Source of the DNA: Sulfurimonas sp.
GTDB taxonomy: Bacteria; Campylobacterota; Campylobacteria; Campylobacterales; Sulfurimonadaceae
Length of the DNA: 50,332 bases
Assembly: GCA_013791885.1 (NCBI GenBank)
Contig: VMSZ01000070.1
Location: 1-50,332 of the forward strand
Reading direction: 5' to 3'
Below the pieces are notes generated by a model. That model had not been told where the DNA came from, ran no database searches, and worked only from the letters and a program-made list of their open reading frames with translations. The position numbers and the translations under genes were made by a program. The number at the start of each line of letters is the position of its first letter. The first letter of the stretch is position 1. Below, one piece after another: positions 1-50,332 of the stretch.

Positions 1-10
1 AGGTAATTTA

Positions 11-244
11 ATGGAAGAAACTAATCTCGTAGTGGAAGGTGTAAAGTTTATGTTTTTAGGAATGGGGGCTGTTTTCCTGTTCTTGACATTAATGATTGTA
101 ACGATGAACATCATGTCGTATATCATTCATAAATTTTTTCCGGAACCTCAAAAAAGCGTAACATCAAATGTTGAAACTCAAAAAGACAACAAAAAAATAG
201 TAGCAGCAATAACAGCAGCAATAGCTCATCACAGACAAGGGTAA
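11..244 (+). CDS. oadG: Sodium-pump decarboxylase gamma subunit (OadG family)
   Basis: The 77-residue protein has one hydrophobic membrane segment at about residues 12-37 and a short charged cytoplasmic tail, the shape of OadG/MmdC subunits. In the known complex the gamma subunit joins the soluble carboxyltransferase to the membrane beta subunit and helps assembly. Its identity rests mainly on position: it lies 8 bases before oadA, which is followed by oadB, the classical G-A-B order. The AGG at bases 1-3 may be its ribosome site, so the upstream region lies outside the window. The tail is rich in Ala/Thr/Lys, as is common in this poorly conserved family. Confidence 0.8.
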   Translation: MEETNLVVEGVKFMFLGMGAVFLFLTLMIVTMNIMSYIIHKFFPEPQKSVTSNVETQKDNKKIVAAITAAIAHHRQG

Positions 245-252
245 GGATTACA

Positions 253-2055
253 ATGGCTAAAAAATTTATAGACATAATGGATACAACTTTTAGAGATGGT
301 TTTCAGTCAGTTTTCGGCGGTCGCGTACTAATGAAAGATTTTTTTCCAGCTGTAGAAGCTGCAAAAACTGCCGGAATAAATCACTTTGAGTTTGGCGGAG
401 GAGCAAGATTTCAATCTTTGTACTTCTACTTAAGAGAAGATGCTTTTGAGATGATGGACGAATTTAGAAAAATTGTTGGTCCTGATGCAAACCTTCAGAC
501 TTTAGCTCGCGGTGTTAACACAGTTATGCTTGATACAGGTTCAAAAGAGCTGATTGACTTGCATGCAAAAATGTTTAAAAAGCACGGGACAACTACAGTT
601 AGAAATTTTGATGCATTAAATGATGTTGAAAATCTAAAATATTCTGGTGAGAGAATCGTGCATCACGGACTTAAGCACGAGGTTGTTGTGACAATGATGG
701 ATTTACCTCCAGGATGTCACGGTGCACATACCGTAGAGTTTTATGAAAAAACTTTACGTGAGATTTTAGACAGCGGCATTCCTTACAGTAGTATCTGTTT
801 TAAAGATGCATCTGGAACTTCTAATCCTCAAAAAGTATTTGAAACTATTAAAATGGCTAGAAAACTTATTCCTGAAGGAACGCATCTTCGTCTTCATACG
901 CATGAGACAGCCGGTGTTTCTGTTGCTGCGTATATGGCAGCTCTTGAAGCGGGTGTTGATGGTATAGATATGGCAGCTGCTCCAGTTTCTGGCGGTACAA
1001 GTCAGCCTGATATTTTAACGATGCTTCATGCTACTAAAGGTATGGATTATGACCTTGGTGGTTTAGAGATTAATAAAATACTAACGTATGAAAAAGAGTT
1101 GGCATATTGTCTCTCTGATTATTTCATGCCGCCAGAAGCTACTATGGTTTCTCCGATTATTCCTTTCTCACCAATGCCTGGCGGTGCTTTAACTGCAAAT
1201 ACGCAAATGATGAGAGATAACGGAATCTTAGACAGATTTCCAGAAGTTATTGCTGCTATGACGGAAGTTGTTGAAAAGGGTGGGTACGGTACTTCTGTAA
1301 CTCCTGTTTCTCAGTTTTATTTCCAACAGGCACTGAATAATGTAATGCAAGGTCCATGGAATGCTATTGCTCCAGGTTATGGAAGAATGGTTCTTGGTTA
1401 TTTTGGTAAAACTCCTGTTGCTCCGGATCCTGAAGTAGTAAGAATTGCTTCAGAAAAGTTAGGATTAGAACCTACAACTGAAAAAGCTCTTGATTTGGCA
1501 AATGCAGATGAGACAAAATCTCTTGCAAACTGGATTAACAAGCTTAAGGAAGAAAATATAGAAATTACTGAAGAAAATATCTTTATTGCTGCTGCATGTC
1601 AAGAAAAAGGTATCGCGTTTTTGCAAGGCAAAGGCGAGTTAAATGTTCGTAAAATATCAGAAATGAAAACAGAAAATGATTGTGAAGGAAATTCAGAGAT
1701 GGCAAGTGGAAATTATACAGTAGTAGTAGACGGACAAAAGTTCAGTGTTCAAGTAGCAGAAGGTGATGCAAACATCCAAGTAACAGCAGTAAATGGTGAA
1801 AGTGTAGCTCCTACGGCTGCTCCTGTCTCTTCAGGTGGAAATACTTTAGATATTAAAGCTCTTTTACCGGGCAGTGTTTGGAAAATTGTTGCTAATCCGG
1901 GCCAGAGTGTAAATGAAGGCGATGTTATTTTGATTTTAGAATCAATGAAAATGGAAATAGATATTGTCGCACCAAGAGGCGGTGTAGTTAAATCTATAAA
2001 TGTTGCAACAAACGACAAGGTAGTCGAAGGTCAAGTTGTCGCATTGTTAGGATAA
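253..2055 (+). CDS. oadA: Biotin-dependent carboxyltransferase, oxaloacetate decarboxylase alpha / pyruvate carboxylase subunit B
   Basis: The 600-residue protein has the full domain order of the family. An N-terminal HMGL-like TIM barrel carries [10 protein letters not shown] at residues 10-19 and the metal-binding motif LHTHETAG near 215. A conserved carboxylase domain follows, then a linker at about 480-530 and a C-terminal biotinyl domain. The biotin acceptor is Lys566 in ESMKME. The enzyme moves CO2 between biotin and pyruvate/oxaloacetate. With OadB and OadG next to it, a membrane decarboxylase that exports sodium is the likely assembly. In Campylobacterota very similar proteins are also annotated as pyruvate carboxylase subunit B, and sequence alone does not settle the direction of flux. 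Confidence 0.93.
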
Positions 2056-2059
2056 CAAG

Positions 2060-3391
2060 ATGAGAAAAACTATAATAAAGTTCTTTGCATTTTTTATATT
2101 GATAGGATTTGGTTCACTATTTGCAAATGAAATCCAGACACCTGAAGTAGGGAGCAGTTCTGCACATATGGAAGAGACTTATAAAGCACAGCCATTCATG
2201 GATATGATTGACGGTTTTTTAACTTCTACGGGTGTTAGTGCATTGATAGAACCGCGCGCTGATGAGATGAACTCTCATGGCGAGCCTATCAGTGATTTCC
2301 ATAAGTCATGGGGACGTGTAATTATGATTTTAATTACATTTTTACTTTTCTACTTAGCAATTGCTAAAGGTTTTGAGCCATTGCTTCTTTTACCTATTGG
2401 TTTTGGAGGTCTTTTAGCGAATATTCCTCTTGCCGGTATTGGAGGAGATACAGGATTTTTAGGTATTATTTACCATATGGGTCTCTCGAATCAGCTTTTC
2501 CCAATACTTATCTTTATGGGTGTTGGCGCAATGACTGACTTTGGTCCACTTTTATCAAACCCTAAAACAGCACTTCTAGGTGGAGCTGCTCAGTTTGGTA
2601 TTTTTGGAACTCTTGTTGGAGCAGTTGCCTTATCACAATATACAACTTTGTTTGACTTTACACTCAAACAAGCGTCTGCTATTTCTATTATTGGTGGAGC
2701 AGATGGTCCGACGTCTATTTTTATTGCGACAAACCTGGCGCCGGAGTTACTTGGAGCAATTGCAGTAGCATCATATTCATATATGGCAATGGTACCTATT
2801 ATTCAGCCTCCAATTATGAAAGCATTAACAACAGATGCGGAGAGAAGAATTAGAATGACGACATTGCGTCACGTATCTCGTTTAGAGAAGTTAATTTTCC
2901 CTATTCTTGTACTTGTGCTTGCAATTCTCATTCTGCCTGATGCTACGCCACTGATTGGTGCGTTTATGTTTGGTAACTTTCTAAAAGAAAGCGGTGTTGT
3001 TGATAGGCTCTCAGACACAATGCAAAATGCGCTTATAAACATAGTTACTATTTTCTTAGGTCTTGCCGTTGGTTCAAAACTTGCAGCAGATCAGTTCTTA
3101 GTACCGGATACTTTGGCTATTCTTGCCCTTGGTATTGTTGCGTTTTCTGTTGGTACTGCAGCGGGTGTCATCATGGCGAAGATTATGAATCTTTTCCCAG
3201 GGCATAAAGTAAACCCGCTCATTGGTTCTGCAGGTGTTTCAGCTGTTCCTATGGCAGCCCGTGTATCAAATAAAGTTGGTATGGAATATGACCGTACAAA
3301 TATGCTTTTAATGCACGCAATGGGTCCAAATGTTGCAGGGGTTATCGGTTCGGCTGTTGCAGCCGGTATATTAATCTCATTATTTCAGTAA
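2060..3391 (+). CDS. oadB: Sodium ion-translocating decarboxylase beta subunit
   Basis: This 443-residue polytopic membrane protein starts 4 bases after oadA. It has a leading hydrophobic segment that looks like a signal or first helix, then about 9-10 membrane segments. The family hallmarks are visible: a glycine-rich [10 protein letters not shown] at about 212-221, and the conserved C-terminal block with SAGVSAVP and [12 protein letters not shown]. In characterised relatives the beta subunit decarboxylates carboxybiotin and couples this to Na+ export. The N-terminal extension before the first conserved helix (about residues 20-90) is longer than in the enterobacterial proteins. The stop codon lies inside a strong hairpin (3380-3409). 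Confidence 0.92.
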
Positions 3392-3409
3392 CAAGTGTTA
3401 CTGAAATAA
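3380..3409 (+). terminator. Hairpin terminator overlapping the oadB stop codon
   Basis: Bases 3380-3393 pair perfectly with 3396-3409 (14 bp, loop AG), and the oadB TAA is inside the left arm. The stem is AT-rich and nearly palindromic, so it could act in both directions between oadB and the convergent cheV gene. There is no clean T-run after it on the plus strand. Confidence 0.65.
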
Positions 3410-5303: not shown

Positions 5304-7037
5304 GTGAATGACATCACTGCATGTTCTCTCGATTGCTATGATACCTGCACAATAGCTTACAAAGACGGAAAGCTCGAAGGTGCCAAGGATTGGCACACCC
5401 AGGGTTTTTTGTGCCCTCATATGAATCATTATGATAAATATGAGACTATAACTGCTCCGCGATATAAAGGCGAAGAGATAAGTTTGCAAAGAGCGCTTGA
5501 GCTCCTTAAAGAGATGTTGCTCAGCTGTAAAAAAGATGAGATATTGCACTATCGCGGGAATGGAAACTTTGGATTGATGCAAGAGGTGAGTGATCATTTT
5601 TTTGCCTCTTTTGGAGCAACCTTAACAGATGGAAACCTTTGTGATGGAGCTGGAGAAGCAGGAATTATAGAAGGAAGAGGCTCAAATAAAAATATGCCTT
5701 TTTCAGAAATAAAAAAATCAGAAGTAGTTATATTTTGGGGACGAAATCCTCATACTACTTCGAGCCATCTTTTACCTTTGCTAAAAGATAAAACTATTAT
5801 TGTCATAGATCCTGTAAAAACAAAAATTGCAAAAACGGCTGACTTGCATATACAGATAAAACCTCGTGGTGATTTTTATTTAGCCATGATGCTGAGTCGT
5901 TTTTTACATATAGAGCATGGGTATGACGAAGAATTTTTACAAAATTACGCAAGTGAGTATCAAGATTTTTATGAACTTACTCAAACTATACGTATCAAGG
6001 CAACTTTAGAAAATATAGATGTTACATTGGGACAGATAGGAAAAGTTTTAGAGCTAATCCGAGGTAAAAAAGTTGCAATAGTCTGTGGAGTCGGAATACA
6101 AAAATATAGTGATGGCGCAGATATTATGCGTGCTATTGATGCTTTTGCAGTTTATTTGGGTCTTTTTGGAAAAGAGGGGTGCGGGGTTGCCTATTTGGGC
6201 CATTCTAAAGAGAAAATTGTATCGCCGTTTTATACAAAAGCCAAGAGAATTTCTAAGGTCAACACTGATTTTGCAAAATTTAAAACGGTGTTTATACAAG
6301 GTGCGAATCCTCTTTCACAGATGCCGGATACACTCAGAGTCAAAGAGTCCTTAAGCCAGGTAGAGAATGTTGTTTATTTTGGTCTTTACGAAAATGAAAC
6401 CAGCGACAGGGCCGATTTAATTATTCCTGCGAAGAGTTTCTTGTATAAAAATGACATTAGAACCTCTTATGCGAATAACTTTCTTCTTAATATGAATAAA
6501 GTTGCCCAAAGCGATGTCGGAATAAGTGAGTATAATTTGAGTGCCTATTTATGCAAAGAGTTTACGGTTGAACTTCAAAGCGAAGAAGAGTATTTAAAAC
6601 ATTTTAAAAATCATGGAGTACAGAAGATAGACGGTTCTTTACAGGTTGAAGGCATAGAAGAGATTCCATATGCGGAAGGTTTTGACACAGATGATGGTGA
6701 GTTTGTTTTTTTAGAGGAGTTTGATACAGACTCAAATCCGGATGATAGACTTTTTTTGATAACTCCAAAAAGTCCTCATAGTTTAAATTCTCAATTTAAA
6801 CGCGAGAAGAGTGTTTATCTTAACAGTTCTCTCGGATTTGATGAGGGAGAAAGGATTACTGTTTCCTCATCCAACGGAACTTTGAGTTTAGAAGTCAAAC
6901 ATAATGATGATTTGAGACCAGACTGCGTTTTGATTTATAGTGGTACAGCGGGTGTGAACAATTTAACGAGCTCAAAACACTCTTTAGATGGAAAAAATGC
7001 GATATATCAAGAAAATAAAGTGGAGATAAATAGATGA
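5304..7037 (+). CDS. Molybdopterin-dependent oxidoreductase, DMSO reductase superfamily, cytoplasmic
   Basis: The 577-residue protein starts at GTG 5304 with GAGGAG 7 bases upstream, 1 base after the previous stop. Cys7, Cys11, Cys15 and Cys37 form an N-terminal [4Fe-4S] site. Cys113, in GNLCDGAGEA, aligns by eye with the Mo-ligand Cys/Sec of NapA and formate dehydrogenase. EVVIFWGRNPHTTSSH and the Asn-Pro-Leu in QGANPLSQMPDT are typical bis-MGD contacts. It ends with a short molydopterin-dinucleotide-binding domain. There is no twin-arginine signal, so it should be cytoplasmic. It is short for the family, and no electron-transfer subunit lies nearby. The substrate cannot be read from sequence. 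Confidence 0.82.
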   Translation: MNDITACSLDCYDTCTIAYKDGKLEGAKDWHTQGFLCPHMNHYDKYETITAPRYKGEEISLQRALELLKEMLLSCKKDEILHYRGNGNFGLMQEVSDHFFASFGATLTDGNLCDGAGEAGIIEGRGSNKNMPFSEIKKSEVVIFWGRNPHTTSSHLLPLLKDKTIIVIDPVKTKIAKTADLHIQIKPRGDFYLAMMLSRFLHIEHGYDEEFLQNYASEYQDFYELTQTIRIKATLENIDVTLGQIGKVLELIRGKKVAIVCGVGIQKYSDGADIMRAIDAFAVYLGLFGKEGCGVAYLGHSKEKIVSPFYTKAKRISKVNTDFAKFKTVFIQGANPLSQMPDTLRVKESLSQVENVVYFGLYENETSDRADLIIPAKSFLYKNDIRTSYANNFLLNMNKVAQSDVGISEYNLSAYLCKEFTVELQSEEEYLKHFKNHGVQKIDGSLQVEGIEEIPYAEGFDTDDGEFVFLEEFDTDSNPDDRLFLITPKSPHSLNSQFKREKSVYLNSSLGFDEGERITVSSSNGTLSLEVKHNDDLRPDCVLIYSGTAGVNNLTSSKHSLDGKNAIYQENKVEINR

Positions 7038-8215
7038 ATATACAAGAATTAGATAAAAAATATGTGTTACCAACGTATGCAAGAGCAGATGTAGAGTTTG
7101 TGAGCGGAAAAAATGCGAGATTAGTAGATGCTAATGGCAAAAAATACATTGACTTTACTTCGGGTATTGCTGTTGTGAGTGTTGGACATGGAAATGAGAG
7201 ACTGACAAATGCAATATGTGAGCAAATCAAAGATATGATGCATATGTCAAACCTTTATTACATTGCACCTCAGGCAAAAGCTGCTCAGAAAATCGTAGAA
7301 GCAAGCGGATACGATATGAAGTGTTTCTTTGGAAACAGTGGTGCAGAGGCGAATGAAGGGGCCATAAAAATAGCAAGAAAACATGGTGAAAGAGATGGCC
7401 AGGTAAAGCAGTATAAGATTATTACACTCAACCACTCTTTTCATGGTAGAACTATAACAACCGTAAAAGCAACGGGACAAGAGAGTATGCACAACTACTT
7501 CGGTCCTTTCCCGGATGGTTTTGTTTATGCAAACGGTATAGATGAGATTGAAAGTCTATTGGATGACCACACTGTAGCAGTTATGATAGAACTTGTTCAG
7601 GGTGAGGGCGGAGTCCAACCGCTTGATAAGCAAAAAGTGCAAGCCTTAGCTAAATTACTGAAAGAAAAAGGTGTCTTGTTGATGGTAGACGAAGTTCAGA
7701 CGGGCGTTTACAGAACAGGAAAATTTTTAGCTTCAAATTATTATGAGATAGAACCGGACGTTATTACTTTGGCAAAAGGTGTTGGCGGCGGAGTTCCTGT
7801 CGGTGTTGTTATGACAAGCCTTAAAGGTATTTTTTCGCCAGGAGATCATGGTTCTACTTTTGGCGGGAATAATCTCAGTACACGTGCAATATGTGAGGTT
7901 ATAGACATTTTAAATGAGTATGATGCAAACGGCGAGTTGGCAAGAGGAATTGCTTATTTTGATGCTGCGTTAGAGAATTTTTACAATGCACACAAAGAGT
8001 TGTTTATGGAAAAGGTCGGCATCGGCATGATAGCCGGTTTACGAGTAAAAGATGCCGATACTCTCGGTAAAATCATAAACGCAGCAAGAGAACACGGAGT
8101 GATGGTTTTAAAAGCTGGGCGAAATACTTTGAGATTTTTGCCACCACTAACAATAACAAAAGAGGAAATAGATGAAGGTTTTGAACTTTTACACACTGCT
8201 CTTACTACTCTCTAG
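7034..8215 (+). CDS. argD: Acetylornithine / succinyldiaminopimelate-type aminotransferase
   Basis: The 393-residue fold-type I PLP enzyme of class III shows FGNSGAEANEGAIKIAR, the HSFHGRT block, EPVQGEGG-like ELVQGEGGVQP, MVDEVQTGVYRTGK, and the PLP lysine in TLAKGVGGG. Length and motifs match ArgD, which aminates N-acetylglutamate semialdehyde in arginine synthesis and often also serves lysine synthesis. Its start overlaps the previous stop as ATGA, so the two are translationally coupled. Other arginine genes are absent here, as is usual in this phylum where they are scattered. Its 3' end overlaps the TolC-like gene by 44 bases. Confidence 0.9.
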   Translation: MNIQELDKKYVLPTYARADVEFVSGKNARLVDANGKKYIDFTSGIAVVSVGHGNERLTNAICEQIKDMMHMSNLYYIAPQAKAAQKIVEASGYDMKCFFGNSGAEANEGAIKIARKHGERDGQVKQYKIITLNHSFHGRTITTVKATGQESMHNYFGPFPDGFVYANGIDEIESLLDDHTVAVMIELVQGEGGVQPLDKQKVQALAKLLKEKGVLLMVDEVQTGVYRTGKFLASNYYEIEPDVITLAKGVGGGVPVGVVMTSLKGIFSPGDHGSTFGGNNLSTRAICEVIDILNEYDANGELARGIAYFDAALENFYNAHKELFMEKVGIGMIAGLRVKDADTLGKIINAAREHGVMVLKAGRNTLRFLPPLTITKEEIDEGFELLHTALTTL

Positions 8216-9383
8216 CGCGACACTTCTCGCCAATGAGAATAATGCTTCGTTGGATGAGTATATCTCTGATTTGAAAAAAGCGCAGTTTAATTATGACTAC
8301 CAAAAAAATGAGGCACAGGGTTCAATCCTTCGTGACTCATGGATAGCTCCGCTGAATCTTAATTATTCGCACTCTACAAGTAACCCTTATGACGCGGAAC
8401 AGGTAAGCCAGGCTGCAGCCATCAAAATGGATCAGCCGATTTTTCAAAGCGGCGGGATTTATTACGGTATTAAGTTTGCAAATGCTTCGAAAGAGTATGC
8501 AGATTACTCTGTAGACGTAGCTAAACGCAAGATGATTAAAGACGCTATAACTTTGCTTATGCAGATAAAACAGAGTGAAATACGAGTGAAACGCCAAAAT
8601 TTTCAGATAAAAAACTCAGAGATTAACTTAGAGCAAAAAAAAGAACAATATTTAAGCGGTCAGCTTGATTCCGGATTTTTAGATAGTGCTATCATAGAGA
8701 GAAACCTTGTTATTCAAGCATTGTATGATATTGAAACATCCAGAGAAAAACTTATTGCAAGCTTTAAAGCTATTAGCGATTTACCATATAAAGAGGCTCC
8801 TATTCCTCATTTGGAGCTTTTAAACGAGGAAGAATTTTTAAAAAATAATATTGTTTTAAAAATGACAGAGTCGCAAAATACGAAAGATGATTACAACAAA
8901 AATGTAACCGTTGCCAAATACTTGCCTAAAGTGAGTGTTACAGCGGGTTATAATTGGAGTAAAAGCGAAGGACAGCTTTTTAAATTGACAGACGGTGAAA
9001 GAGATTATTACGACTATGGCTTCAAGGTAAATATGCCATTAAACATTAACACTTTTAGAGACATAGAATCGGCTAAAGTAGATTTTTTAAAGTCACAAAT
9101 CAAGGTAGAAGATGAAAAACGCGCACTTACATCTGTTTTCGTCCAAGTTCTTGAAAACATTAAAAAACTAGACAAAAAAATAGTTTTGAGTGTTGAAAAC
9201 AGAGAGCTTTATGCAAAGCTTTTAGAAGATACTAAGAGTCTTTTTAACGCAGGATACAAAACAGAGTATGATATAGAGACACTCCAAAATTCTGTACAAA
9301 TTCAAGAACTGGACTCTAAAATATTTGAACTAGACCGTCAGCTTGAACTTTTAACACTTTACGAAATGTATGTAAATGACTAG
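8172..9383 (+). CDS. TolC-like outer-membrane efflux protein
   Basis: The 403-residue protein has a signal peptide (about residues 1-20, ending LLAN) and long heptad-rich helices in two repeats (about 90-200 and 290-395), separated by strand-like segments with alternating residues (VSVTAGYNWSKSEGQL). This is the TolC/OEP architecture. The ATG lies inside the end of argD but has GAGGA at 8163-8167, so the overlap seems genuine. It probably forms the exit duct for the adaptor encoded at 4502. The pump itself is not encoded nearby. Confidence 0.82.
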   Translation: MKVLNFYTLLLLLSSATLLANENNASLDEYISDLKKAQFNYDYQKNEAQGSILRDSWIAPLNLNYSHSTSNPYDAEQVSQAAAIKMDQPIFQSGGIYYGIKFANASKEYADYSVDVAKRKMIKDAITLLMQIKQSEIRVKRQNFQIKNSEINLEQKKEQYLSGQLDSGFLDSAIIERNLVIQALYDIETSREKLIASFKAISDLPYKEAPIPHLELLNEEEFLKNNIVLKMTESQNTKDDYNKNVTVAKYLPKVSVTAGYNWSKSEGQLFKLTDGERDYYDYGFKVNMPLNINTFRDIESAKVDFLKSQIKVEDEKRALTSVFVQVLENIKKLDKKIVLSVENRELYAKLLEDTKSLFNAGYKTEYDIETLQNSVQIQELDSKIFELDRQLELLTLYEMYVND

Positions 9384-34213: not shown

Positions 34214-34314
34214 ATCTATCCTTGCGTTTTTGAAATTATAACGATTCTTTGACATAGAGTTCAAAATTTGGAGATATAATTCCATTTTTACTTGAATTGA
34301 TAAAAGAGGTCTTT

Positions 34315-41148: not shown

Positions 41149-42693
41149 TTGTACACACTCAAATACTATTCGCCCTCAAGGGTATATAGAGTTTTTACTT
41201 TTTTACTGACTATTTATTTGGTCATAAAAAAGAAAAAAAGCTTTTTGGGTTTTACGCCATTAGCACCGTTAGAGCTCAAGAAAACCATTATTTATTTGGG
41301 TGCGAGCTTCATTAAACTCGCTCAGGTTTTGGCAACTCGCTCAGACTTTTTTGACAAAGAGTATCTTGATGAGCTCAAAGAGCTCCATGACGCCCTGCCG
41401 CCGATGAGCGAGAAGGATTTTGAGGAAGTTTTCAAGCGCGCATTTGCTCATGATGCTTTTAAGAGTTTTGAGCAAAAACCTATAGCTTCCGCCTCCATCG
41501 GGCAAGTCCACATCGCATACACGCATGAGGGCGAGAAGGTGGCTGTGAAACTGCGTCGAAAAAATATCTACGCTCAAGTGATGGCAGATATCCGCATCAT
41601 CAACTCTTTTAATACGCTTTTTAAACCGCTTTTTTCGCACTATACAAAAAATTCCATAGAAGCGGTCATAAGCGAGTTTTCAAAGATGATAAAAGAAGAA
41701 GTAAGTCTCAACCAAGAGCTTAAAAATCTTCTCAAATTCTCTGGAGTTTACAAAGACGCAGGCGTAAAATTTCCAACTCCATACCCTACACTTTGTAGTG
41801 ATGACGCCCTTGTCATGAGCTACGAAGAGGGTTTTCGTTTTGATGACAAAGAGAGCATTTTTGCCAACAACATTGACTTTAGGGCTATCATCGCAAAACT
41901 TGTAGATTTTTACACAACGCAGATGCTCATTAATGGTTATTTTCATGCCGATCCGCATCCGGGAAATCTGCTTGTAAGTAAAGAAGGTGAGCTGATTTTG
42001 CTTGACTTTGGAATGGTTAAAACCGTACCAAACAACTCTCGTGTGGCAATTATTGAGCTCATTAAAGCAGCCAACGAGCAAGACTATGAGCGCTACATTG
42101 CCGCAAACAAAAAGCTGGGAACCATCGCCTATGAAGCTCCGACGGCTGAACTGGCAGAGTTTACGGCAAAAATGTTTGAGATATTTTCAAACGACAATCT
42201 CGACAGTGAATCTATGCAGCAACTTGCCTTTGATGTGCTTGAGTCTACAAGAGATTTACCTTTTAAACTTCCAAGTGATGCTATCTACATCTTGCGAGTG
42301 AGCGCCATCATCGAGGGTTTAGGGACGACTTACATAGAAAATTTTAACGGTGTCAAAGACATCTTACCGATTTTGCAAAAGAACATTCCAAGAGCTTTGG
42401 GAGCAAAAGAAGGCATCCTTGAAACACTCTTAGAAGAGATAAAAGAGCTGCCTTTCATTGCCAAAGATTTTAAATCCGCCATCAAAAAAATAAGCTCGGA
42501 TGAACTCAGAGTTGAACTCTCAAACGACCAGTTGGAGTGGATAAAAAAAGATGTAAAAACGCAGGTAAAATCCTACGCAATCTCATTTTCGCTGATGCTC
42601 GGCGGCGTTTTTGTTTTAGTGTACGAGAGAGAGTACAAAGAGCTAGCCGTGGGGCTTTTTGTCTTTGGTGTGGCGAGAATACTCTATAAATAA
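41149..42693 (+). CDS. ABC1/UbiB-family atypical kinase
   Basis: The 514-residue protein has the UbiB/ADCK core: FIKLAQVLATRSDFF in the KxGQ position, the Ala-rich loop ASASIGQVH, the Lys in VAVKLRRKNI, the HADPHPGNLL catalytic loop, and LLDFGMV. Two C-terminal membrane segments follow (about 472-490 and 492-512). KxGQ reads KLAQ, with Ala for Gly. The family acts in quinone-related lipid metabolism, and this phylum uses menaquinone. The start is TTG 41149, close behind the phasin-like gene. Confidence 0.85.
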   Translation: MYTLKYYSPSRVYRVFTFLLTIYLVIKKKKSFLGFTPLAPLELKKTIIYLGASFIKLAQVLATRSDFFDKEYLDELKELHDALPPMSEKDFEEVFKRAFAHDAFKSFEQKPIASASIGQVHIAYTHEGEKVAVKLRRKNIYAQVMADIRIINSFNTLFKPLFSHYTKNSIEAVISEFSKMIKEEVSLNQELKNLLKFSGVYKDAGVKFPTPYPTLCSDDALVMSYEEGFRFDDKESIFANNIDFRAIIAKLVDFYTTQMLINGYFHADPHPGNLLVSKEGELILLDFGMVKTVPNNSRVAIIELIKAANEQDYERYIAANKKLGTIAYEAPTAELAEFTAKMFEIFSNDNLDSESMQQLAFDVLESTRDLPFKLPSDAIYILRVSAIIEGLGTTYIENFNGVKDILPILQKNIPRALGAKEGILETLLEEIKELPFIAKDFKSAIKKISSDELRVELSNDQLEWIKKDVKTQVKSYAISFSLMLGGVFVLVYEREYKELAVGLFVFGVARILYK

Positions 42694-42932
42694 AAGGCAT
42701 AGATGTCAATAAAACGCAGCGAAAGAGTGGATTTACCCCGCTCATGTGTGCGGCATGTTATGGACGAAACGAGGTTGTAAAAATCTTGCTAGAGAGCGGC
42801 GCCGACAAAGATGCCACTGATGCAAAAGGGCTAAGTGCCACGGATTTTGCCAGAAAAATGAATAAAAAAAGCATCCTCAAACTGCTTGACTATGATGAAA
42901 ATGCGCCGAAAAATGTGACTTATGCAAGGTAA
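42690..42932 (+). pseudogene. Ankyrin-repeat remnant
   Basis: From 42690 the frame reads KGIDVNKTQRKSGFTPLMCA, then AACYGRNEVVKILLESGADK and a following repeat (DATDAKGLSATDFARKM). These are classic ankyrin repeats, but the frame begins inside a repeat (GIDVN) right after a stop, with no ATG, GTG or TTG before the repeat. The first possible start is ATG 42744, which would cut the first repeat. An ATG at 42703 is in another frame. It looks like the C-terminal end of a longer ankyrin gene whose front was lost next to the kinase gene. Confidence 0.7.
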
Positions 42933-42982
42933 AAAGATTTCCTGATACAATAAAATCTAATTATTGAATCTCAAGGGTGAAG

Positions 42983-43990
42983 ATGAAGAAAAAAGTTATT
43001 ATTATCGGGGCAGGGCTTAGTGGCGTTTATCTCTCTTATTTACTTCAAGAGAGGTATGAAGTTACAATTTTAGAAGCCAGAGAGAGAACGGGCGGGCGTA
43101 TTTTCAGCTATGGCTCTCACGACCTTGGACCTTCTTGGATCTGGTCACATCAAAAAAATATTTTAAAACTTCTGAGTGAATTAAAGCTCGAACTTTTCTC
43201 TCAATACACAAAGGGGTATGCTCTCTATGATGCCCAGCCAAAAGTGCAAACCTTTCACCCGCAACCCTCAGCTCCCTCTGCAAGAGTAAAGGGTTCTCTC
43301 AGTATGCTCATAGAAAAACTACAAGAAAAACTCTCACAGACTAAAATTATCCTCTCCCAAGAAGTTCTAAGCGTACGACAAAACGCAGAGGGCGTTACAG
43401 TTACAACAGCTACGGAGATTTACGAGGCAGACTATGCTATTGTTACGTTGCCTCCAAGACTTTGCGCTACCCTAGAGTATGAACCACAACTTCCCTTGGC
43501 TTTAAAAGAGAAGATGCTTCAAACGCAGACATGGATGGGAAACAGTATGAAATGTGTCATAGAGTTTGAGAGCGCTTTTTGGCGAGAGCGCGGACTCAGC
43601 GGTTTTATGTTCTCAAACCAAGGCCCAATTGCTGAGATGCACGATGCCTGCAGCGAAGATAAAGCCGCTTTGTTTGGCTTTGTGCACTCAAATGCATCTA
43701 TGCAAACTTTTCAAGAGGATGTAAAAGCACAGCTTATGCGAGTATTTGGCATCAAAAAAGAGGCGATTTTGGAGATTTATTTTGTAGATTGGAGAAGAGA
43801 GAAATTCACCTCCAGCGATCAAGATGCAAAACCTCTGAGCGCGCATCCTTCGTATGGCATAGATACAAGCAGTTATGAGGGACGAGTCTTTTTTAGCTCT
43901 ACGGAGTTTTCTTATCAAGAGGGTGGGTATCTTGAAGGTGCTGTTATGAACGCACAAAAGATTGCCGCGTCGTTTCACTCCTCACAATGA
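42983..43990 (+). CDS. Flavin-containing amine oxidase-family protein
   Basis: ATG 42983 is preferred over GTG 42977, because AAGGG (42973-42977) overlaps the GTG. The 335-residue protein has the FAD-binding GAGLSGVYLSYLL, EARERTGGRIFSYG and the C-terminal FAD segment (STEFSYQEGGYLEGAVMNA). It is shorter than typical amine oxidases (about 430-500), with a reduced substrate domain. The substrate is unknown. Confidence 0.8.
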   Translation: MKKKVIIIGAGLSGVYLSYLLQERYEVTILEARERTGGRIFSYGSHDLGPSWIWSHQKNILKLLSELKLELFSQYTKGYALYDAQPKVQTFHPQPSAPSARVKGSLSMLIEKLQEKLSQTKIILSQEVLSVRQNAEGVTVTTATEIYEADYAIVTLPPRLCATLEYEPQLPLALKEKMLQTQTWMGNSMKCVIEFESAFWRERGLSGFMFSNQGPIAEMHDACSEDKAALFGFVHSNASMQTFQEDVKAQLMRVFGIKKEAILEIYFVDWRREKFTSSDQDAKPLSAHPSYGIDTSSYEGRVFFSSTEFSYQEGGYLEGAVMNAQKIAASFHSSQ

Positions 43991-44096
43991 GCAAACGCAG
44001 TCATTTCGAGCTACACACAAATAAACTAACAAATTAAGCCTACTAAAAACACACTCCAAGGGTTAAGATAACATACACCATTAGAGGAATGATGAT

Positions 44097-44613: not shown

Positions 44614-45822
44614 ATGCAAGATTACATCCCCACAGCCTTTGATTTTGACCCCGATGCGCGAGGCCATTTTGGTATTTTTGGCGGAAGATTTGTTCCTGAA
44701 ACGCTCATGCCTGCTCTTTTAGAGCTAGATGCAGAGTATAAAAAAGTGCGTTTCGATGAGGAGTTTTGGGCGGAGGTCAATTATTATTTGCGAGAATATG
44801 TCGGCCGTCCTTCACCGCTTTATAGGGCAGCATCTCTCTCAAAAGAGCTTGGCGCTGAGGTCTATCTTAAACGCGAGGACTTAAACCACACAGGCGCCCA
44901 CAAGATAAACAACACCATCGCCCAAGGTCTGCTTGCTAAACGCATGGGTAAAACAAAGATTATAGCCGAGACGGGAGCAGGTCAACATGGCGTTGCTTCT
45001 GCTACGGTTGCGGCACTTATGGGTTTAGAGTGTGAAGTTTTTATGGGGGCAAAAGATGTGGCACGCCAAGAGTTGAATGTTTTTCGCATGAAGCTTTTAG
45101 GGGCAAAAGTGCATTCGGTTGAGAGCGGAAGTAAAACACTTAAAGATGCTATGAACGACGCCATCCGCCACTGGGTGACAAACGCAAGAGATACTTTTTA
45201 TGTCATAGGAACGGCGGCAGGCCCGCATCCTTACCCGCTTATGGTGCGTGATTTTCAAGCCATCATTTCTAAAGAAGCCAAAGAACAAATTTTGCAAAAA
45301 ACCGGAGCGATGCCTGATATGGTTGTCGCCTGCATAGGCGGCGGCAGTAACGCCCTTGGAATGTTTGCGCACTTTATTAACGAAGAAAAAACTCAGTGTA
45401 TTGGCATAGAAGCGGGCGGTCATGGGCTTGAAAGCGGTAAACATGGAGCGAGTCTGGCGCTTGGACGGCCTGGAATTTTGCATGGACAGCTGAGTTATTT
45501 ATTACAAAGCGCGGATGGGCAAATAGACGAAGCGCACTCTATTTCCGCAGGTTTGGACTATCCGGGCATTGGGCCCGAACACTCCTACCTCATGGAACAG
45601 GGCAAGGTGATGTATGACTCTGTAACAGACGACGAGGCGATGGAAGCTTTTGTCTGGCTCTCTCGTGCTGAGGGAATTGTCCCTGCGTTTGAGAGCGCTC
45701 ATGCCATTGCGTATCTTAAAAAGATTCCAAAAGAGGAGATAAAGGGCAAGGTAATCATCATCAGTCTCTCAGGCAGAGGCGACAAAGATATGCCTCAGGC
45801 GATGGAAATATTGAAGCTATAA
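44614..45822 (+). CDS. trpB: Tryptophan synthase beta subunit
   Basis: ATG 44614 follows AAAGGT (44602-44607); an overlapping frame back to 44500 is only the shadow of the previous gene. The 402-residue protein is a canonical Trp[21 protein letters not shown] lysine in [32 protein letters not shown] and the final SGRGDKDM. It joins indole to serine. No trpA or other trp gene is adjacent. Confidence 0.95.
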
Positions 45823-45823
45823 T

Positions 45824-45960: not shown

Positions 45961-46902
45961 ATGAAGAGAGCTATTTTACTTATGAATATGGGCGGGCCCA
46001 ATAATCTTGATGAGGTTGAAGTTTTTTTGACCAATATGTTTAATGACAAACGCATCATCGGTGCGCCTAAACCGATTCGCTCCATGATTGCAAAACTCAT
46101 CACTTGGAGACGCAAAGATGAAGCGAAGGCCAACTATGCGCATTTGGGCGGTAAATCTCCTTTAGTCGGCTACACACAGGAGCTTATAAACAATCTCGAA
46201 TCAAGTATCAAAGACGCTTCTATCCATATGGTTATGCGCTACACGCCTCCCTTTGCGAGCGATGTTTTAGACAAGCTTAGAGATGTGGATGAGTTCTACG
46301 CCATTCCTCTTTATCCGCATTACTCCTCGACAACAACGCTCTCAAGTTATGATGATTTGTATGAGACTTTTGACAAATTGCGCATCAAAGCCAGAGTCAA
46401 AAGTGTGGACGATTACTATAATGACCGCTATTACATCAACTCCATTGTTGAGCGCATCAAAGAGAGTTTAAACGGCGAAGACCCAGCGGAATTTGAGTTG
46501 ATTTTTTCCGCTCATGGACTTCCTAAAAAGATTATAGAAAAAGGGGACTCTTACCAAAAACACATTCGCCGAAATGTTTACCATGCAAGAAAAGCCCTCA
46601 TGCTTGCGGGAGTAGATTTTCATAAAACACATCTGGCATATCAGTCGCGTTTGGGACCATTGGAGTGGATTAGACCTTATTTAGATGACAAACTCAAATC
46701 TCTCAGCAAGAAAAAGGTTATAATCTTTCCTATTGCGTTTACGGTGGATAACTCTGAAACGGAGTTTGAGCTTGAGATAGAATACAGAGAAAAAGCAGAG
46801 GAGATGGGGTTTGATGAGTACAGAGTTGCCAAAGCGCCAAATAACCATCCTGAGTTTATAAAGTGTCTGACAAACATGTATGAAAATATGAAAGTATCGT
46901 GA
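45961..46902 (+). CDS. hemH: Ferrochelatase
   Basis: ATG 45961 follows GAGGT (45951-45955). The 313-residue protein has the family opening LLMNMGGPNNLDEVEVFL, the active-site His in FSAHGLPKKI, and the conserved acidic pair in FTVDNSETEFELEIEYRE. It inserts iron into protoporphyrin (or a related porphyrin), the last step of haem synthesis. The protein lacks membrane segments. The next gene begins 7 bases after the stop. Confidence 0.93.
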   Translation: MKRAILLMNMGGPNNLDEVEVFLTNMFNDKRIIGAPKPIRSMIAKLITWRRKDEAKANYAHLGGKSPLVGYTQELINNLESSIKDASIHMVMRYTPPFASDVLDKLRDVDEFYAIPLYPHYSSTTTLSSYDDLYETFDKLRIKARVKSVDDYYNDRYYINSIVERIKESLNGEDPAEFELIFSAHGLPKKIIEKGDSYQKHIRRNVYHARKALMLAGVDFHKTHLAYQSRLGPLEWIRPYLDDKLKSLSKKKVIIFPIAFTVDNSETEFELEIEYREKAEEMGFDEYRVAKAPNNHPEFIKCLTNMYENMKVS

Positions 46903-46909: not shown

Positions 46910-48331
46910 ATGAAAGATTTTGCAGTGGTTGGCTCGGGCGTTGGCGGAAGTTCCATAGCTGCTTTGCTGAGTGCCAAAGGCTTTGATGTCGCTTTGTTTG
47001 AAAAAGAGCCGTATTTGGGCGGATGCAGCTCCTCTTTTTCTCACAAAGGCTACACATATAACACAGGTGCAACTACTTTGGCGGGCTATGAAGAGGGCTA
47101 CATTGTCAAAGAGATTTTTGACGCTATCGGTTTTGTGCCTGAGCTAATACAAACAGATCCTTCCATCGTTATCATTCAAGGTGCAAAAACCACTCCGCGT
47201 TATAAGGATTTTGAGCGCTTTTTTGAGAGTGTGCAAACAAATTACCCTCATGCAAAAAACAGAGAATTTTGGGAACTTGTGTATGACTTGAACAAAGAGT
47301 TTTACAAACAAAGCGGACATTACTACGCAAACGCAGGAGTCTTTTCAAAACTCAAGTCACTCATGAGCTTTTTGCCGCTTTTTTTGAAGTTTCAAAAGTA
47401 TCTCAGAGTGGATGCGCAGAGTTTTATAGAAGATTTTTTTGGCGGGATAAACGCAGAGTATATGCAATTTTTGGAGTCTCAGGTTCTTATCGTCGCGCAG
47501 GCTCCGCTCAAAGAGATTAATTTTTTTACCGCCGCACTCGCACTTGGCTACACTTTTAATGACAACCATTATGTTAAAGGCGGTTTTTCTCTTCTTTTTG
47601 AGACACTGACACAAAATGTACAAGAAGTCCATAAAAAAAGCGAAATACTTCAAATAGTCAAACGCAGCGACTGTTTTGAGCTGCACACGGCTAAAAAAAT
47701 TTATGAGGCTAAAAATGTGATACTTAACTCCACTGTTTATGAGAGTGCAAGACTTTTTACCGATGCAAACATCAAAAATTATTACAAAAAGTATGAAAAA
47801 CTAAACAACCACCAAAGTTCTTTTATGCTTTACATGAGCATTAAAAGCAGTAAAGAGTTTCATCACCATTACCAGATAATAGGCGATGAGGTAATTAAAA
47901 ACACGCTCTCAAAAGCGCTTTTTGTCTCTTTTTCGGATGCTCATGATGAAAAAATTGCTCCAAAGGGCATATATAGCATCACCGCTTCCATCCACACTGA
48001 CAGTAGATTTTGGGTAGATGAAGCCAACTATAAAGCGCAAAAAAAAGAGCTAGAGGGTATACTGCGTAAAACAATTTTAGAAACTTTAAAAATAGACGAA
48101 GCAGAAGTTTTAGAGTGCTTTAGTGCTACTTCTAAAACATTCGCCCACTACATCAACAGAAGCCAACTCGGAGGAAACGCAATTACCATGAAAAACTTTC
48201 TTCCATTTTTACCGGGAAATGACACTCCGATTAAAAACTTATATAACGTCGGAGACACGGTTTACGCGGCGCAGGGCTGGCCGGGAGTAATGCTTGGTGT
48301 AAAAAATTTACAAAGGTTGCTTGGTGTATAA
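46910..48331 (+). CDS. CrtI/CrtISO-like FAD-dependent oxidoreductase
   Basis: The 473-residue protein begins with a Rossmann FAD motif (VGSGVGGSSIAALLSAKG) and FEKEPYLGGCSSSF, as in phytoene desaturases and carotenoid isomerases. It ends with the family's FAD segment (NLYNVGDTVYAAQGWPGVML). AGAGCA lies before the ATG. Carotenoid genes are not adjacent, so the substrate is uncertain. Its last 11 bases overlap the histidine kinase frame, which starts at 48324 or 48321. Confidence 0.82.
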   Translation: MKDFAVVGSGVGGSSIAALLSAKGFDVALFEKEPYLGGCSSSFSHKGYTYNTGATTLAGYEEGYIVKEIFDAIGFVPELIQTDPSIVIIQGAKTTPRYKDFERFFESVQTNYPHAKNREFWELVYDLNKEFYKQSGHYYANAGVFSKLKSLMSFLPLFLKFQKYLRVDAQSFIEDFFGGINAEYMQFLESQVLIVAQAPLKEINFFTAALALGYTFNDNHYVKGGFSLLFETLTQNVQEVHKKSEILQIVKRSDCFELHTAKKIYEAKNVILNSTVYESARLFTDANIKNYYKKYEKLNNHQSSFMLYMSIKSSKEFHHHYQIIGDEVIKNTLSKALFVSFSDAHDEKIAPKGIYSITASIHTDSRFWVDEANYKAQKKELEGILRKTILETLKIDEAEVLECFSATSKTFAHYINRSQLGGNAITMKNFLPFLPGNDTPIKNLYNVGDTVYAAQGWPGVMLGVKNLQRLLGV

Positions 48332-49334
48332 CATTGCCCTTCATATAAAATCAAGAGATTGGCTTTACATTCTCATCATCGGCGTCTTTTTTGGCATGTT
48401 TCTCTCCTCTTTAGGTTACATTCTTTTAGAAAAACCTTGGCTTGATGGGGCTTTTTTTGGGGTGCTTTTGGGTTTTAGCATTACACTTTTTTCTCTCGTC
48501 TTTATCTCCTACATGAACAAAAATATTTTGCCAAAACTCGCAGAAGTTTACTGGCTGCCGCTCTCTATACTCTTTTCGTTTTTGTCGGGATTTTTGGGCA
48601 CGCTTGTGGGAACTTTTTTGGCGAAGCTACTCTCTTTAGAACTTATTCCTGCGTTTGAGGAACAAATTGTTGTGATTTCTCTCTCCATCGGTGTTTTGAC
48701 CTACATCGTCGGGGCTCTGCTTTACAGATTTGTAAAGATGCGCAACCAAAAAGACGCCATAGACCATGAGTATGTGCAAAGCCGTTTGCGCTCCCTTGAA
48801 ACGCAGCTCAATCCGCACTTTTTGTTTAATGCGCTCAACTCCATAGCCGAACTCATTCATCATGACAAAGACAAGGCAGAGATGGCTGTTTTAAAGGTTT
48901 CTGCGTTTTTGAGAAACTCTATGAACGAAAAAGCGCTGCTGTGTTTAGAAGATGAGATTCGCAATGTAAAAGATTATGTAGAGCTTGAAAACATCCGATT
49001 TTCGGGCAAAATAAAACTCCACATCCAAGGAAAACCAAAAAATTGGAGTATTCCAAAGTTTTCCATTCAGCTGCTTGTGGAAAACGCAATTAAACACGGC
49101 TATAATCCCGCAAAAGAGCAGTTAAACATCTGGCTCTCTTTTGATGATGCAAAAAAAATAATCATACTTAAAAATGATGGAAACGCAATGAAGTCGCAAA
49201 AGTTTGGAGTAGGGCTCTCAAACCTTAACCAACGAGTGGAGCTTTTGTGCCATGGAAAAATCGAGATTAGAGACACGCTAGAACCCACTTTTTATATCTA
49301 TGTAGGAGATTGTAATGAAAATATTAATTGTTGA
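48324..49334 (+). CDS. LytS/YehU-family membrane sensor histidine kinase
   Basis: I choose GTG 48324, with AAAGG at 48312-48316; TTG 48321 is also possible. The 336-residue protein has about four membrane segments in its first 140 residues, then a His_kinase (PF06580-type) domain: LNPHFLFNALNSIAELIHHD holds the phospho-acceptor His, LLVENAIKHGYNP is the N box, and GVGLSNLNQRVELL is the G box. It overlaps the response regulator gene by 20 bases, so the two form one two-component system. There is no separate ligand domain. Confidence 0.9.
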   Translation: MYNIALHIKSRDWLYILIIGVFFGMFLSSLGYILLEKPWLDGAFFGVLLGFSITLFSLVFISYMNKNILPKLAEVYWLPLSILFSFLSGFLGTLVGTFLAKLLSLELIPAFEEQIVVISLSIGVLTYIVGALLYRFVKMRNQKDAIDHEYVQSRLRSLETQLNPHFLFNALNSIAELIHHDKDKAEMAVLKVSAFLRNSMNEKALLCLEDEIRNVKDYVELENIRFSGKIKLHIQGKPKNWSIPKFSIQLLVENAIKHGYNPAKEQLNIWLSFDDAKKIIILKNDGNAMKSQKFGVGLSNLNQRVELLCHGKIEIRDTLEPTFYIYVGDCNENINC

Positions 49335-50010
49335 TGATGAAGAGTTGGCACGGGCTAGACTCTCAAGAATGTTAAACACGCTCGAACTTGGCTTAATAGA
49401 CGAGGCTACAAACGCAAATGAAGCCATAGAAGCTGTAAAAGCGGACAAATATGACCTTGTTTTTTTGGACATCAATATGCCTCAGGTAAGCGGTTTGGAA
49501 CTGGGCTATGAACTAAAATATTTGGATTCTGATGTGGCTATTATTTTTCAAACGGCGTATGAAGAACATGCGCTCAAAGCTTTTGATATCGGCGCGGTTG
49601 CTTATCTTGTGAAACCTTACTCGTTAGAGCAGGTTAAAATGGCCGTAGAACGTGTGAAAACGGCAAAAGTCAAAGATGAAGATTTACGCATACTCTCCAA
49701 AAGCGGAGATAATTATCTGCTGCTAAAACCTCAGGAAATTCACTACGTAAAAGCCGACCTTTCAGAGGTAATGCTCAGAACTGCCAAAGGTTTTTCTTAC
49801 TACGCACAGAAAATCTCCGACTTGCAAACAAAACTCGAAGCCCACAATTTTGTTCGCATTCACCGCTCTTACCTCATAAACATAGACGAGATAAAAGAGA
49901 TAGAAACCATAGAAAGCGAACTATGGAATCGCTTCACCAAACAATATAACGTTTCATTAAAAAGACAGACAGATCAACAGAAAGAAACTAGTGATTATGA
50001 CAAAGATTAA
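49315..50010 (+). CDS. LytTR-type response regulator, C-terminus altered
   Basis: The 231-residue protein has a receiver (about 1-120) with the acidic pair at Asp7/Asp8, phospho-acceptor Asp52 in FLDINMP, and Lys in YLVKPYS. A LytTR DNA-binding domain (about 135-231) follows, with EIHYVKADLSEVML and VRIHRSYLINIDEI. The usual LytTR end, a strand pair with a basic Ser-Arg/Ser-Lys tail, is not recognisable after about residue 200; instead the end reads RQTDQQKETSDYDKD. This is where a foreign hsdR begins, so the last part may have been replaced by an insertion or assembly join. Confidence 0.85.
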   Translation: MKILIVDDEELARARLSRMLNTLELGLIDEATNANEAIEAVKADKYDLVFLDINMPQVSGLELGYELKYLDSDVAIIFQTAYEEHALKAFDIGAVAYLVKPYSLEQVKMAVERVKTAKVKDEDLRILSKSGDNYLLLKPQEIHYVKADLSEVMLRTAKGFSYYAQKISDLQTKLEAHNFVRIHRSYLINIDEIKEIETIESELWNRFTKQYNVSLKRQTDQQKETSDYDKD

Positions 50011-50332
50011 CGAAAACACGTTAGCGGAACAGCCGGTGATTGAGTGGTTAAGGGAATTGGGCTATGAAACCCTGTTCAGCCCGGATTTGGCGCCGGGCGG
50101 AGCGTTCATGGAAAGAAACGATTACCGTGGAGTGGTTTTATCAGCCAGGTTTAGGCGATCTTTAAAGAGAATTAATCCTAATATTCCCGATGAGGCCTTG
50201 GATCAGGTGGCTAAAAAGATAATTAAATACGAACATGAGGATATTGAATTAGGCAATAAAGAAATGTATGAAATGTTGACCAGGGGAATAGTCGTAGACG
50301 TCAAAGACGAGCACAGTGACGTTAGAGGGAAA
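49997..50332 (+). CDS. hsdR: Type I restriction enzyme R subunit, N-terminal part (runs off the window)
   Basis: An open frame from ATG 49997 runs 112 codons to the end of the window without a stop. It encodes MTKINENTLAEQPVIEWLRE, then LGYETLFSPDLAPGG and RNDYRGVVLSARFRRSLKRI, and IVVDVKDEHSDVRGK. This is the start of HsdR subunits, before the PD-(D/E)xK nuclease core. Only the N-terminal tenth is present. It overlaps the response regulator's 3' end by 14 bases. The start of the reading frame is richer in G+C (about 58% in 50041-50100) and uses AGG for Arg four times, unlike the preceding genes. The hsdS/hsdM partners are not on the left side. Confidence 0.8.
   Translation, partial: MTKINENTLAEQPVIEWLRELGYETLFSPDLAPGGAFMERNDYRGVVLSARFRRSLKRINPNIPDEALDQVAKKIIKYEHEDIELGNKEMYEMLTRGIVVDVKDEHSDVRGK

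Follow-up and report, generated by a model that had tools for sequence, protein, structure and literature searches.

Why does a single short word, AAACGCA, occur so often and on both strands of a 50,332-nucleotide contig from Sulfurimonas sp.? This contig (GenBank assembly GCA_013791885.1, contig VMSZ01000070.1, positions 1 to 50,332 of the forward strand), hereafter the window, is contig 62 of a genome of 2,523,358 bases in 75 contigs, which will be referred to as G000. Here, we followed the word through the window, its genome and related genomes. The excess of AAACGCA is real and genome-wide, and it is explained by neither composition nor codons. In the form HAAACGCAR, the word is probably a self-recognition (uptake) sequence of this Sulfurimonas lineage. 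The preliminary description of the window had already likened it to DNA uptake sequences, and the traits of such sequences that can be tested in genomes, namely excess, density, lack of polarity, maintenance and dialects, agree with that likeness.

Abundance of the word in the window and in the genome

The window has 74 copies of AAACGCA, 40 on the plus strand and 34 on the minus strand, against a mean of 10.5 and a maximum of 18 in 100 dinucleotide shuffles. In 67 of the 74 copies a G or an A follows; for this longer word, AAACGCAR, the shuffle mean is 6.2. Under Markov models of order 2 and order 3, TGCGTTT/AAACGCA is the most over-represented 7-mer of the window and AAACGCAG the most over-represented 8-mer. 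Neither is a top word of the window under maximum-order models, which is expected because the excess is then carried by sub-words. The density is uneven, with few copies below 8 kb, one at 16.3-21.9 kb and many at 23-28 kb and 42-49.5 kb.

The preliminary description, which proposed a Markov-model count, had found about 65 copies (about 37 versus 29 in the two orientations) and thus understated the number. Its ten example positions are all in the computed list. It was also right that both orientations occur, that G or A nearly always follows, and that copies are dense at 23-28 and 42-49.5 kb and sparse at 0-8 and 17-21.9 kb. The AAACGCAR copies in the window, on both strands (n = 67), are the following.

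3138..3145, minus strand, AAACGCAA
4956..4963, plus strand, AAACGCAG
6923..6930, minus strand, AAACGCAG
8077..8084, plus strand, AAACGCAG
8523..8530, plus strand, AAACGCAA
9785..9792, minus strand, AAACGCAG
9981..9988, plus strand, AAACGCAG
10266..10273, plus strand, AAACGCAG
12034..12041, minus strand, AAACGCAG
14852..14859, minus strand, AAACGCAA
14901..14908, minus strand, AAACGCAG
16094..16101, minus strand, AAACGCAA
16139..16146, minus strand, AAACGCAG
16284..16291, minus strand, AAACGCAG
18518..18525, plus strand, AAACGCAG
21924..21931, minus strand, AAACGCAG
23164..23171, plus strand, AAACGCAA
23346..23353, minus strand, AAACGCAA
23694..23701, minus strand, AAACGCAA
24410..24417, minus strand, AAACGCAG
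24453..24460, minus strand, AAACGCAG
24527..24534, plus strand, AAACGCAA
24754..24761, plus strand, AAACGCAA
24883..24890, plus strand, AAACGCAA
25058..25065, minus strand, AAACGCAG
25294..25301, plus strand, AAACGCAG
25797..25804, minus strand, AAACGCAG
26534..26541, plus strand, AAACGCAG
26711..26718, plus strand, AAACGCAG
27002..27009, plus strand, AAACGCAG
27049..27056, minus strand, AAACGCAA
27232..27239, minus strand, AAACGCAA
28309..28316, plus strand, AAACGCAA
28721..28728, minus strand, AAACGCAA
29757..29764, minus strand, AAACGCAA
30249..30256, plus strand, AAACGCAG
31067..31074, minus strand, AAACGCAG
31233..31240, plus strand, AAACGCAA
31260..31267, plus strand, AAACGCAG
31884..31891, minus strand, AAACGCAA
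33761..33768, minus strand, AAACGCAA
33776..33783, minus strand, AAACGCAA
33950..33957, plus strand, AAACGCAA
34222..34229, minus strand, AAACGCAA
36290..36297, plus strand, AAACGCAA
36657..36664, minus strand, AAACGCAA
38384..38391, minus strand, AAACGCAA
38457..38464, plus strand, AAACGCAA
39967..39974, plus strand, AAACGCAG
42557..42564, plus strand, AAACGCAG
42712..42719, plus strand, AAACGCAG
43381..43388, plus strand, AAACGCAG
43521..43528, plus strand, AAACGCAG
43993..44000, plus strand, AAACGCAG
45180..45187, plus strand, AAACGCAA
45683..45690, minus strand, AAACGCAG
46733..46740, minus strand, AAACGCAA
47329..47336, plus strand, AAACGCAG
47449..47456, plus strand, AAACGCAG
47660..47667, plus strand, AAACGCAG
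48175..48182, plus strand, AAACGCAA
48649..48656, minus strand, AAACGCAG
48799..48806, plus strand, AAACGCAG
48901..48908, minus strand, AAACGCAG
49082..49089, plus strand, AAACGCAA
49181..49188, plus strand, AAACGCAA
49410..49417, plus strand, AAACGCAA

Comparison of the AAACGCA and AAACGCAR lists leaves these copies of AAACGCA without a following purine.

2959..2965, minus strand
13913..13919, plus strand
14920..14926, minus strand
35222..35228, plus strand
44747..44753, minus strand
44938..44944, plus strand
46048..46054, plus strand

The segment 16676-21433 is poor in the motif, with one copy between 16291 and 21924. It contains a gene of the phage-integrase family (18271-19095) and several genes without a Pfam match, and is perhaps a recent insertion that has yet to gain the word.

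The preliminary description left open that the motif might be lacking in the rest of the genome. In G000 as a whole, AAACGCAR occurs 1,465 + 1,505 = 2,970 times and the reversed word 191 + 166 = 357 times. This corresponds to one copy per 0.85 kb and about 0.9% of the genome; uptake signal sequences have a density around one copy per kb.

Sequence constraint, codon use and orientation

The logo was made from a 380-kb sample of G000, in which two small contigs were masked, and reads HAAACGCARC, with G avoided directly before the word. In this sample AAACGCAG occurs 258 times against 15 expected, and the flanks beyond HAAACGCARC are near background except for a period-3 ripple. One-base variants at positions 1-6 occur at 0.5-2.6 times expectation and those at position 7, which is slightly tolerant, at 2.5-2.7 times. 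A dispersed mobile repeat or insertion product would also give many dispersed copies. This origin has a negligible probability in our view, since only about nine positions are constrained while the flanks are near background, and since the corresponding places in relatives hold ungapped variants, described below, that point to substitution.

The word could also be a by-product of codon or dipeptide use, as the preliminary description had considered for Asn-Ala and Ala-Phe pairs, or of mutation bias. The copies in genes do favour the two frames that give Asn-Ala (184) and Ala-Phe (134). The 338 predicted genes of a 394,623-base sample hold 425 copies of AAACGCAR, 253 sense and 172 antisense, whereas 100 synonymous shuffles that leave the proteins unchanged gave a mean of 64.8 and a maximum of 81. 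The codon and dipeptide explanation is thereby refuted. In genes, furthermore, the reversed word shows no enrichment (50 copies against 43 in the synonymous shuffles), and this, together with the low counts of the variants at positions 1-6, leaves codon use and mutation bias with next to no probability.

Chi and the FtsK-orienting polar sequences (KOPS) are short, abundant genomic words as well, and AAACGCAR could be such a site, kept by selection and recognised by a machine for recombination (Chi-like, AddAB/RecBCD) or for segregation (KOPS-like, FtsK). The orientation skew of such sites is absent from the stretches examined. Neighbouring copies in the G000 stretches have the same orientation in 266 and opposite orientations in 225 of 491 pairs, and the spacing of copies is clustered (coefficient of variation 1.23). 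Stretches with a strong GC skew hold both orientations similarly (15/14 in L003, skew -0.133; 15/17 in L012, skew +0.099). Single stretches can be uneven, such as L006 (17/5) and L007 (2/11). Stretches of the other dialects described below are mostly balanced on small counts, two in G397 being uneven (12/5 and 8/16), and whole-genome word counts are balanced between strands. The strand-skew check proposed in the preliminary description therefore gives no polarity in the stretches examined, from G000 or from other dialects. Close species also differ completely in their word, which would not be expected of conserved nucleases and translocases. We regard a Chi-like or KOPS-like role as very improbable.

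Dialects across the genus

The comparison genus comprises 135 genomes of the phylum Campylobacterota and was taken as Sulfurimonas from relatives of PolA. Among the matches listed, the closest named relatives of the window PolA are the Sulfurimonas metagenome-assembled genomes STC_122, GWF2_37_8 and STC_53 (87%). In a survey of 397 genomes of the phylum, AAACGCAR stands out in G000 and G239 only, both of the window's genus. The search for candidate words covered 60 genomes and 80 named loci, in stretches no longer than 20 kb, and a dialect was called when a word had 6 copies or more and a z of 6 or more. Calls were made for 79 of 141 stretches and 62 were left uncalled, G000 and the window being counted apart. 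These local dialect counts are selected, because the candidate words were drawn from those very stretches. The consensus sequences, pooled for dialects A to F, are as follows.

Dialect A, HAAACGCAGY
Dialect B, TAAACGCSA
Dialect C, TTGGCATGTGGAAA
Dialect D, CTACATGTAGA
Dialect E, CTCACGCAGR
Dialect F, GTAGATGCTAAA
Dialect H, GGATGTAGA, from one genome

ACGC is common to dialects A, B and E, and ATGTRGA to C, D and H. Whole-genome counts were made for the words of A (AAACGCAR), C (GGCATGTGGA) and D (TACATGTAGA). For B (TAAACGCSA), E (CTCACGCAG), F (GTAGATGCTA) and H (GGATGTAGA) the basis is stretches amounting to no more than 60 kb in any one genome. With thresholds set by us, AAACGCAR reaches at least three times the reversed word in 31 of the 135 genomes, with up to 4,199 copies (G484). 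GGCATGTGGA reaches at least 50 copies in 17 genomes (1,302 in G360, with a single reversed word), and TACATGTAGA at least 50 in 20 (515 in G481, reversed word 8). No genome belongs to two of these sets; 68 belong to one and 67 to none. The comparison with related genomes that the preliminary description had suggested thus gives lineage-specific dialects. AAACGCAR and GGCATGTGGA were also surveyed in 366 genomes from other genera of the phylum. The former is there no more than about 2.4 times as frequent as its reversed word, as we read the counts, and the latter has 11 copies at most; neither word shows an enrichment comparable to that in Sulfurimonas.

Another abundant word, CGGTGAAGT, is found in G405 (L348-L351) and in L047 and is possibly a further dialect. 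AGAATGACG, TTTGGAATGA, TAGCATCAT and CCATACTC are over-represented in L197 (G421), L178 (G486), L091, L046 and L112; they may represent additional dialects or else repeats. CAAAAGAG is in excess in many Sulfurimonas stretches of any dialect (L060, L062-L064, L067, L118-L119 and others); part of this excess may be homology, since the stretches share the polA region.

Turnover of the word

The window and L107, L041 and L042, all of dialect A, are joined in the PolA tree (79 rows) by L114 of dialect C with 99% support. They lie in a group of 10 C rows, 4 A rows and 1 uncalled row (support 83), and the remaining A and B rows form a separate group. The tree of PriA, DnaB and ComEC (29 genomes) likewise groups the A genomes G000, G484, G239 and G407 with four C genomes (99%). 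A single clade of all A genomes is rejected by species markers in 22 genomes (approximately unbiased test, p-AU 4.5e-5).

Copies at orthologous positions are maintained within the dialect, a point that the preliminary description had proposed to check. L107 keeps 17 of 33 window copies against 12.9% of sampled 8-mers, and L041 and L042, of the same dialect, keep 8 of 16 and 4 of 9 against a background of 13-16%. Five C relatives each keep 0-1 of 15-28 window copies, with a background of 9-10%. Most orthologous places in relatives are ungapped variants, often AAATGCAA or AAAAGCAA in the C relatives, and therefore the copies arose by substitution in place. They persist within a dialect, and the majority postdate the separation from these C relatives.

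An uptake sequence and its machinery

From the excess, the lack of polarity in the stretches examined, the dialects, the maintenance and the co-variation, with exceptions, with a pilin described below, we infer an uptake bias, a molecular drive and DNA binding by a pilin. Competent cells would bind outside DNA preferentially where the word is present. A type IV-type competence pilus and ComEC would bring the bound DNA into the cell, where it would be recombined. Word-bearing alleles would re-enter the population more often, and the word would accumulate across the genome by biased exchange. Different Sulfurimonas lineages would read different words. The change of the window's clade from the GGCATGTGGA dialect to AAACGCA would go back to a swap of FimT-L, a minor pilin gene, between lineages, after which point mutations would have rewritten the words of the genome.

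A match to ComEC is present in 123 of the 135 genomes. In G000, contig 48 carries comEC and three pilin genes, of which the last immediately precedes priA, and the genome has nine pilin-type matches. Many other genomes have pilin genes no more than about 10 kb from comEC, G403 being an exception. The gene that the preliminary description had named pilT and connected with uptake is in the window.

14799..15905, minus strand, T2SSE-family ATPase (Pfam PF00437, E 6.9e-50)

The family match stands, and the protein is possibly a pilus motor; it adds little to the case for uptake.

The DNA uptake sequences of Neisseriaceae have lineage-specific dialects and the receptor ComP (PMC3630211), the uptake signal sequences of Pasteurellaceae have PpdA/ComN as predicted receptor, and these two families are the only ones known to discriminate DNA in this way (PMC12616744). 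As in Neisseriaceae, about 1% of the Sulfurimonas genome is in a short word, on both strands, with several dialects in related species and a minor pilin as reader, here a candidate. Unlike Neisseriaceae, Sulfurimonas belongs to Campylobacterota, its words are unrelated, several occur within one genus, dialect A is in non-sister clades, and the candidate pilin is FimT/GspH-like and not ComP. With the sequences of Pasteurellaceae it shares a core of about 9 bp, about one copy per kb, at least two dialects and a minor pilin as predicted reader. The Sulfurimonas logo lacks the extended AT-rich flank of the extended Pasteurellaceae sequence (PMC12616744), and the word differs further in having no excess of inverted close pairs and in being sparser between genes than within them. 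The pilin-like competence protein Cj0683 of Campylobacter jejuni is encoded before priA (PMC10046745), as is the last pilin of the Sulfurimonas comEC locus. No such word is reported for Sulfurimonas, Campylobacterota or Epsilonproteobacteria in the open literature searched; as far as this search reached, an uptake-sequence system with dialects is most likely new for the phylum.

Three observations weigh against an uptake role; the first two concern traits that are typical of uptake sequences but do not define them. The density of AAACGCAR is 1.26 per kb in predicted genes versus 0.76 per kb between them (394,623 bases), so the word is present in genes and gaps, as the preliminary description had it, but not in both alike. 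The 28 close pairs (less than 40 bp) show no excess of the inverted arrangement (12 opposite versus 16 same); in Haemophilus, by contrast, terminator pairs have been described (PMC5217627). ComEC does not separate the enriched genomes, the 12 genomes without a match being 9 of the 68 on the word lists and 3 of the 67 others. Most of these 12 genomes are incomplete drafts, although a completeness of 99% is stated for G500.

The word could instead be the target of a DNA methyltransferase, uptake or restriction reading the methyl mark, and the dialect could then follow methyltransferase exchange. We find this improbable. Restriction usually depletes its target sites and does not enrich them, and a minor pilin tracks the dialect. 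Methylated EcoRI sites are nevertheless a precedent in C. jejuni, whose transformation constructs were given them as an uptake signal (PMC10046745).

FimT-L, a candidate reader of the word

Two related pilins are encoded away from comEC in G000, one of 178 amino acids (contig 31) and one of 228 amino acids (contig 14, L137:1501-2187). The latter, FimT-L, adjoins a gene that we take to be that of the ATP-citrate lyase AclA. FimT-L matches N_methyl and TIGR02532. The GspH model gives 29.5 bits for the 178-residue paralogue and 20.6 for FimT-L, both below the cut-off of 80. The hits of a PDB profile search were weak (best E 0.0007), and almost all fell on pilin N-termini. The name FimT denotes resemblance only, as the Pfam and NCBIfam models do not support membership of that family. 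Like FimT of Legionella and other Gammaproteobacteria (PMC8897410), FimT-L is a minor pilin with a pilin N-terminus and an arginine-containing C-terminal motif. Unlike the Legionella protein it has GRP and not GRxR: in the aligned members no C-terminal GRxR was found, and GRP is followed by variable residues.

The C-terminal part after the GRP motif varies with the dialect. The tail is GDQSTMTGPYTAGTQRLIT in G000, and tails resembling it occur in further A genomes from both clades and in G009, of dialect E. It is GKLGGASGGGNAEAY-like in B genomes, and C, D and F genomes have other tails. Labels for the pilin tests were chosen by us from whole-genome counts and local calls. The weakly enriched genomes outside the labelled set include G129, G402, G406, G429, G448, G458, G459, G466, G468, G479, G494, G500 and G442. 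In a partial Mantel test given AclA (27 genomes; G015, G404 and G009 were left out for lack of an AclA sequence), dialect and FimT-L correlate with r of 0.52 (0 of 999 permutations as high), the C-terminal, N-terminal and middle parts giving 0.57, 0.40 and 0.30 (0/999 each). AclA alone is a poor control, because ComEC, PriA and DnaB also correlate with dialect given AclA (0.29-0.38). Given PriA and DnaB, r is 0.41 for FimT-L (22 genomes, 0/999), 0.10 for the last pilin (48/999), 0.08 for ComEC (77/999) and 0.07 for AclA (164/999). In 21 common genomes FimT-L reaches 0.42 and ComEC 0.23 (1/999). The partial r of FimT-L is 0.27 (14/999) within C, D and F genomes only and 0.34 (26/999) within A, B and E only.

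One clade of the 72-row FimT-L tree (support 98/97) unites all 13 labelled A, B and E rows with 5 unlabelled rows; within it, G000 and G447, a member of the distant A group, are sisters (99/96). A FimT-L tree constrained to keep the window clade together with the C rows is rejected (p-AU 9.5e-5, with two C rows only). The mean identity of the window clade to C and to the distant A group is 0.49 and 0.62 for FimT-L, against 0.74 and 0.71 for PriA, 0.90 and 0.89 for DnaB, 0.57 and 0.52 for ComEC, 0.90 and 0.85 for AclA, and 0.50 and 0.43 for the first pilin of the comEC locus. Separating the ACGC words from the rest takes 1 change on the FimT-L tree and 2 on the species markers. Four of the 5 unlabelled rows in the clade (G429, G459, G466 and G468) reach at least three times the control, the fifth, G405, does not, and G458 (3.1 times the control) is an exception that falls just outside. 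FimT-L was extracted from all 15 genomes of one or two contigs. Among the few genes tested, FimT-L is the likeliest reader of the word, and we put its being so at roughly an even chance.

Several results count against FimT-L as receptor. Legionella FimT binds DNA, with no reported sequence preference (PMC8897410). The 72-row FimT-L tree leaves the C rows (5 changes for 5 rows) and the D rows (6 for 6) dispersed. For all six dialect classes, compared in the same 22 genomes, FimT-L takes 7 changes and the species markers 6. A single A+B+E clade is not rejected by the species markers of these genomes (p-AU 0.338), and neither the pair test nor the event count can reach significance, because there are only 1-2 independent ACGC switches on the tree. 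G405 lies inside the AAACGC-type clade though its word is CGGTGAAGT, and the TACATGTAGA genomes G186 and G479 bear an AAACGCA-like tail. The last pilin, next to priA, leans slightly to the distant A group (0.58, against 0.54 to C). FimT-L was not found in some enriched drafts, for example G449, G461 and G356. In drafts the gene is often near a contig end and a repeat may follow it; its absence there may be an assembly effect.

It is also quite possible, though we lean somewhat away from it, that uptake is as proposed and another surface protein reads the word, with FimT-L following the dialect through gene exchange among cells of the same dialect. This is compatible with HAAACGCAR as an uptake sequence, and such exchange is expected if the word gates uptake. 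The exceptions G405, G186 and G479, the scattered C and D rows and the r of ComEC in the 21 common genomes fit such a reader, as does the handful of genes tested, but AclA, which adjoins FimT-L, and the two other pilins follow the dialect to a lesser degree.

Two other candidates were rejected. For the first pilin of the comEC locus, the partial r given PriA and DnaB is 0.05 (156/999), and the G000 copy (AAACGCA) is close by eye to that of G439 (GGCATGTGGA). A GspJ-like pseudopilin had matches (E up to 0.001) in 76 of 135 genomes but none in the word-bearing G328, G332 and G009; its partial r is 0.11 (13 genomes), and in the 10 genomes shared with FimT-L it is 0.32 versus 0.41.

Returning to HAAACGCAR as an uptake sequence read by FimT-L, the fuller scenario is one that we hold tentatively, at slightly under an even chance. 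Sulfurimonas would represent a third independent origin of uptake sequences, with perhaps at least seven dialects in one genus, set by a mobile FimT-like minor pilin whose swaps retarget uptake and rewrite thousands of sites, the window's clade having switched from GGCATGTGGA to AAACGCA. If so, this origin would be in environmental sulfur-oxidising bacteria, and self-tagging would not depend on life with a host. The genus, with its many dialects and one switch or more, would serve as a natural experiment on the origin, spread and change of such words and on the question of which part of the pilin reads DNA. It would also provide a genome-based test of DNA exchange partners in vents, sediments and groundwater.

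Other observations

The first pilin of the comEC locus (L138:5360-5731, L187) is very variable between species. Its versions in G000 and in G439, which has another dialect, look nearly identical, possibly through a recent pilin transfer. The window also has three genes of the FAD/NAD-dependent oxidoreductase family, at 32975-34285, 42977-43990 and 46910-48331.

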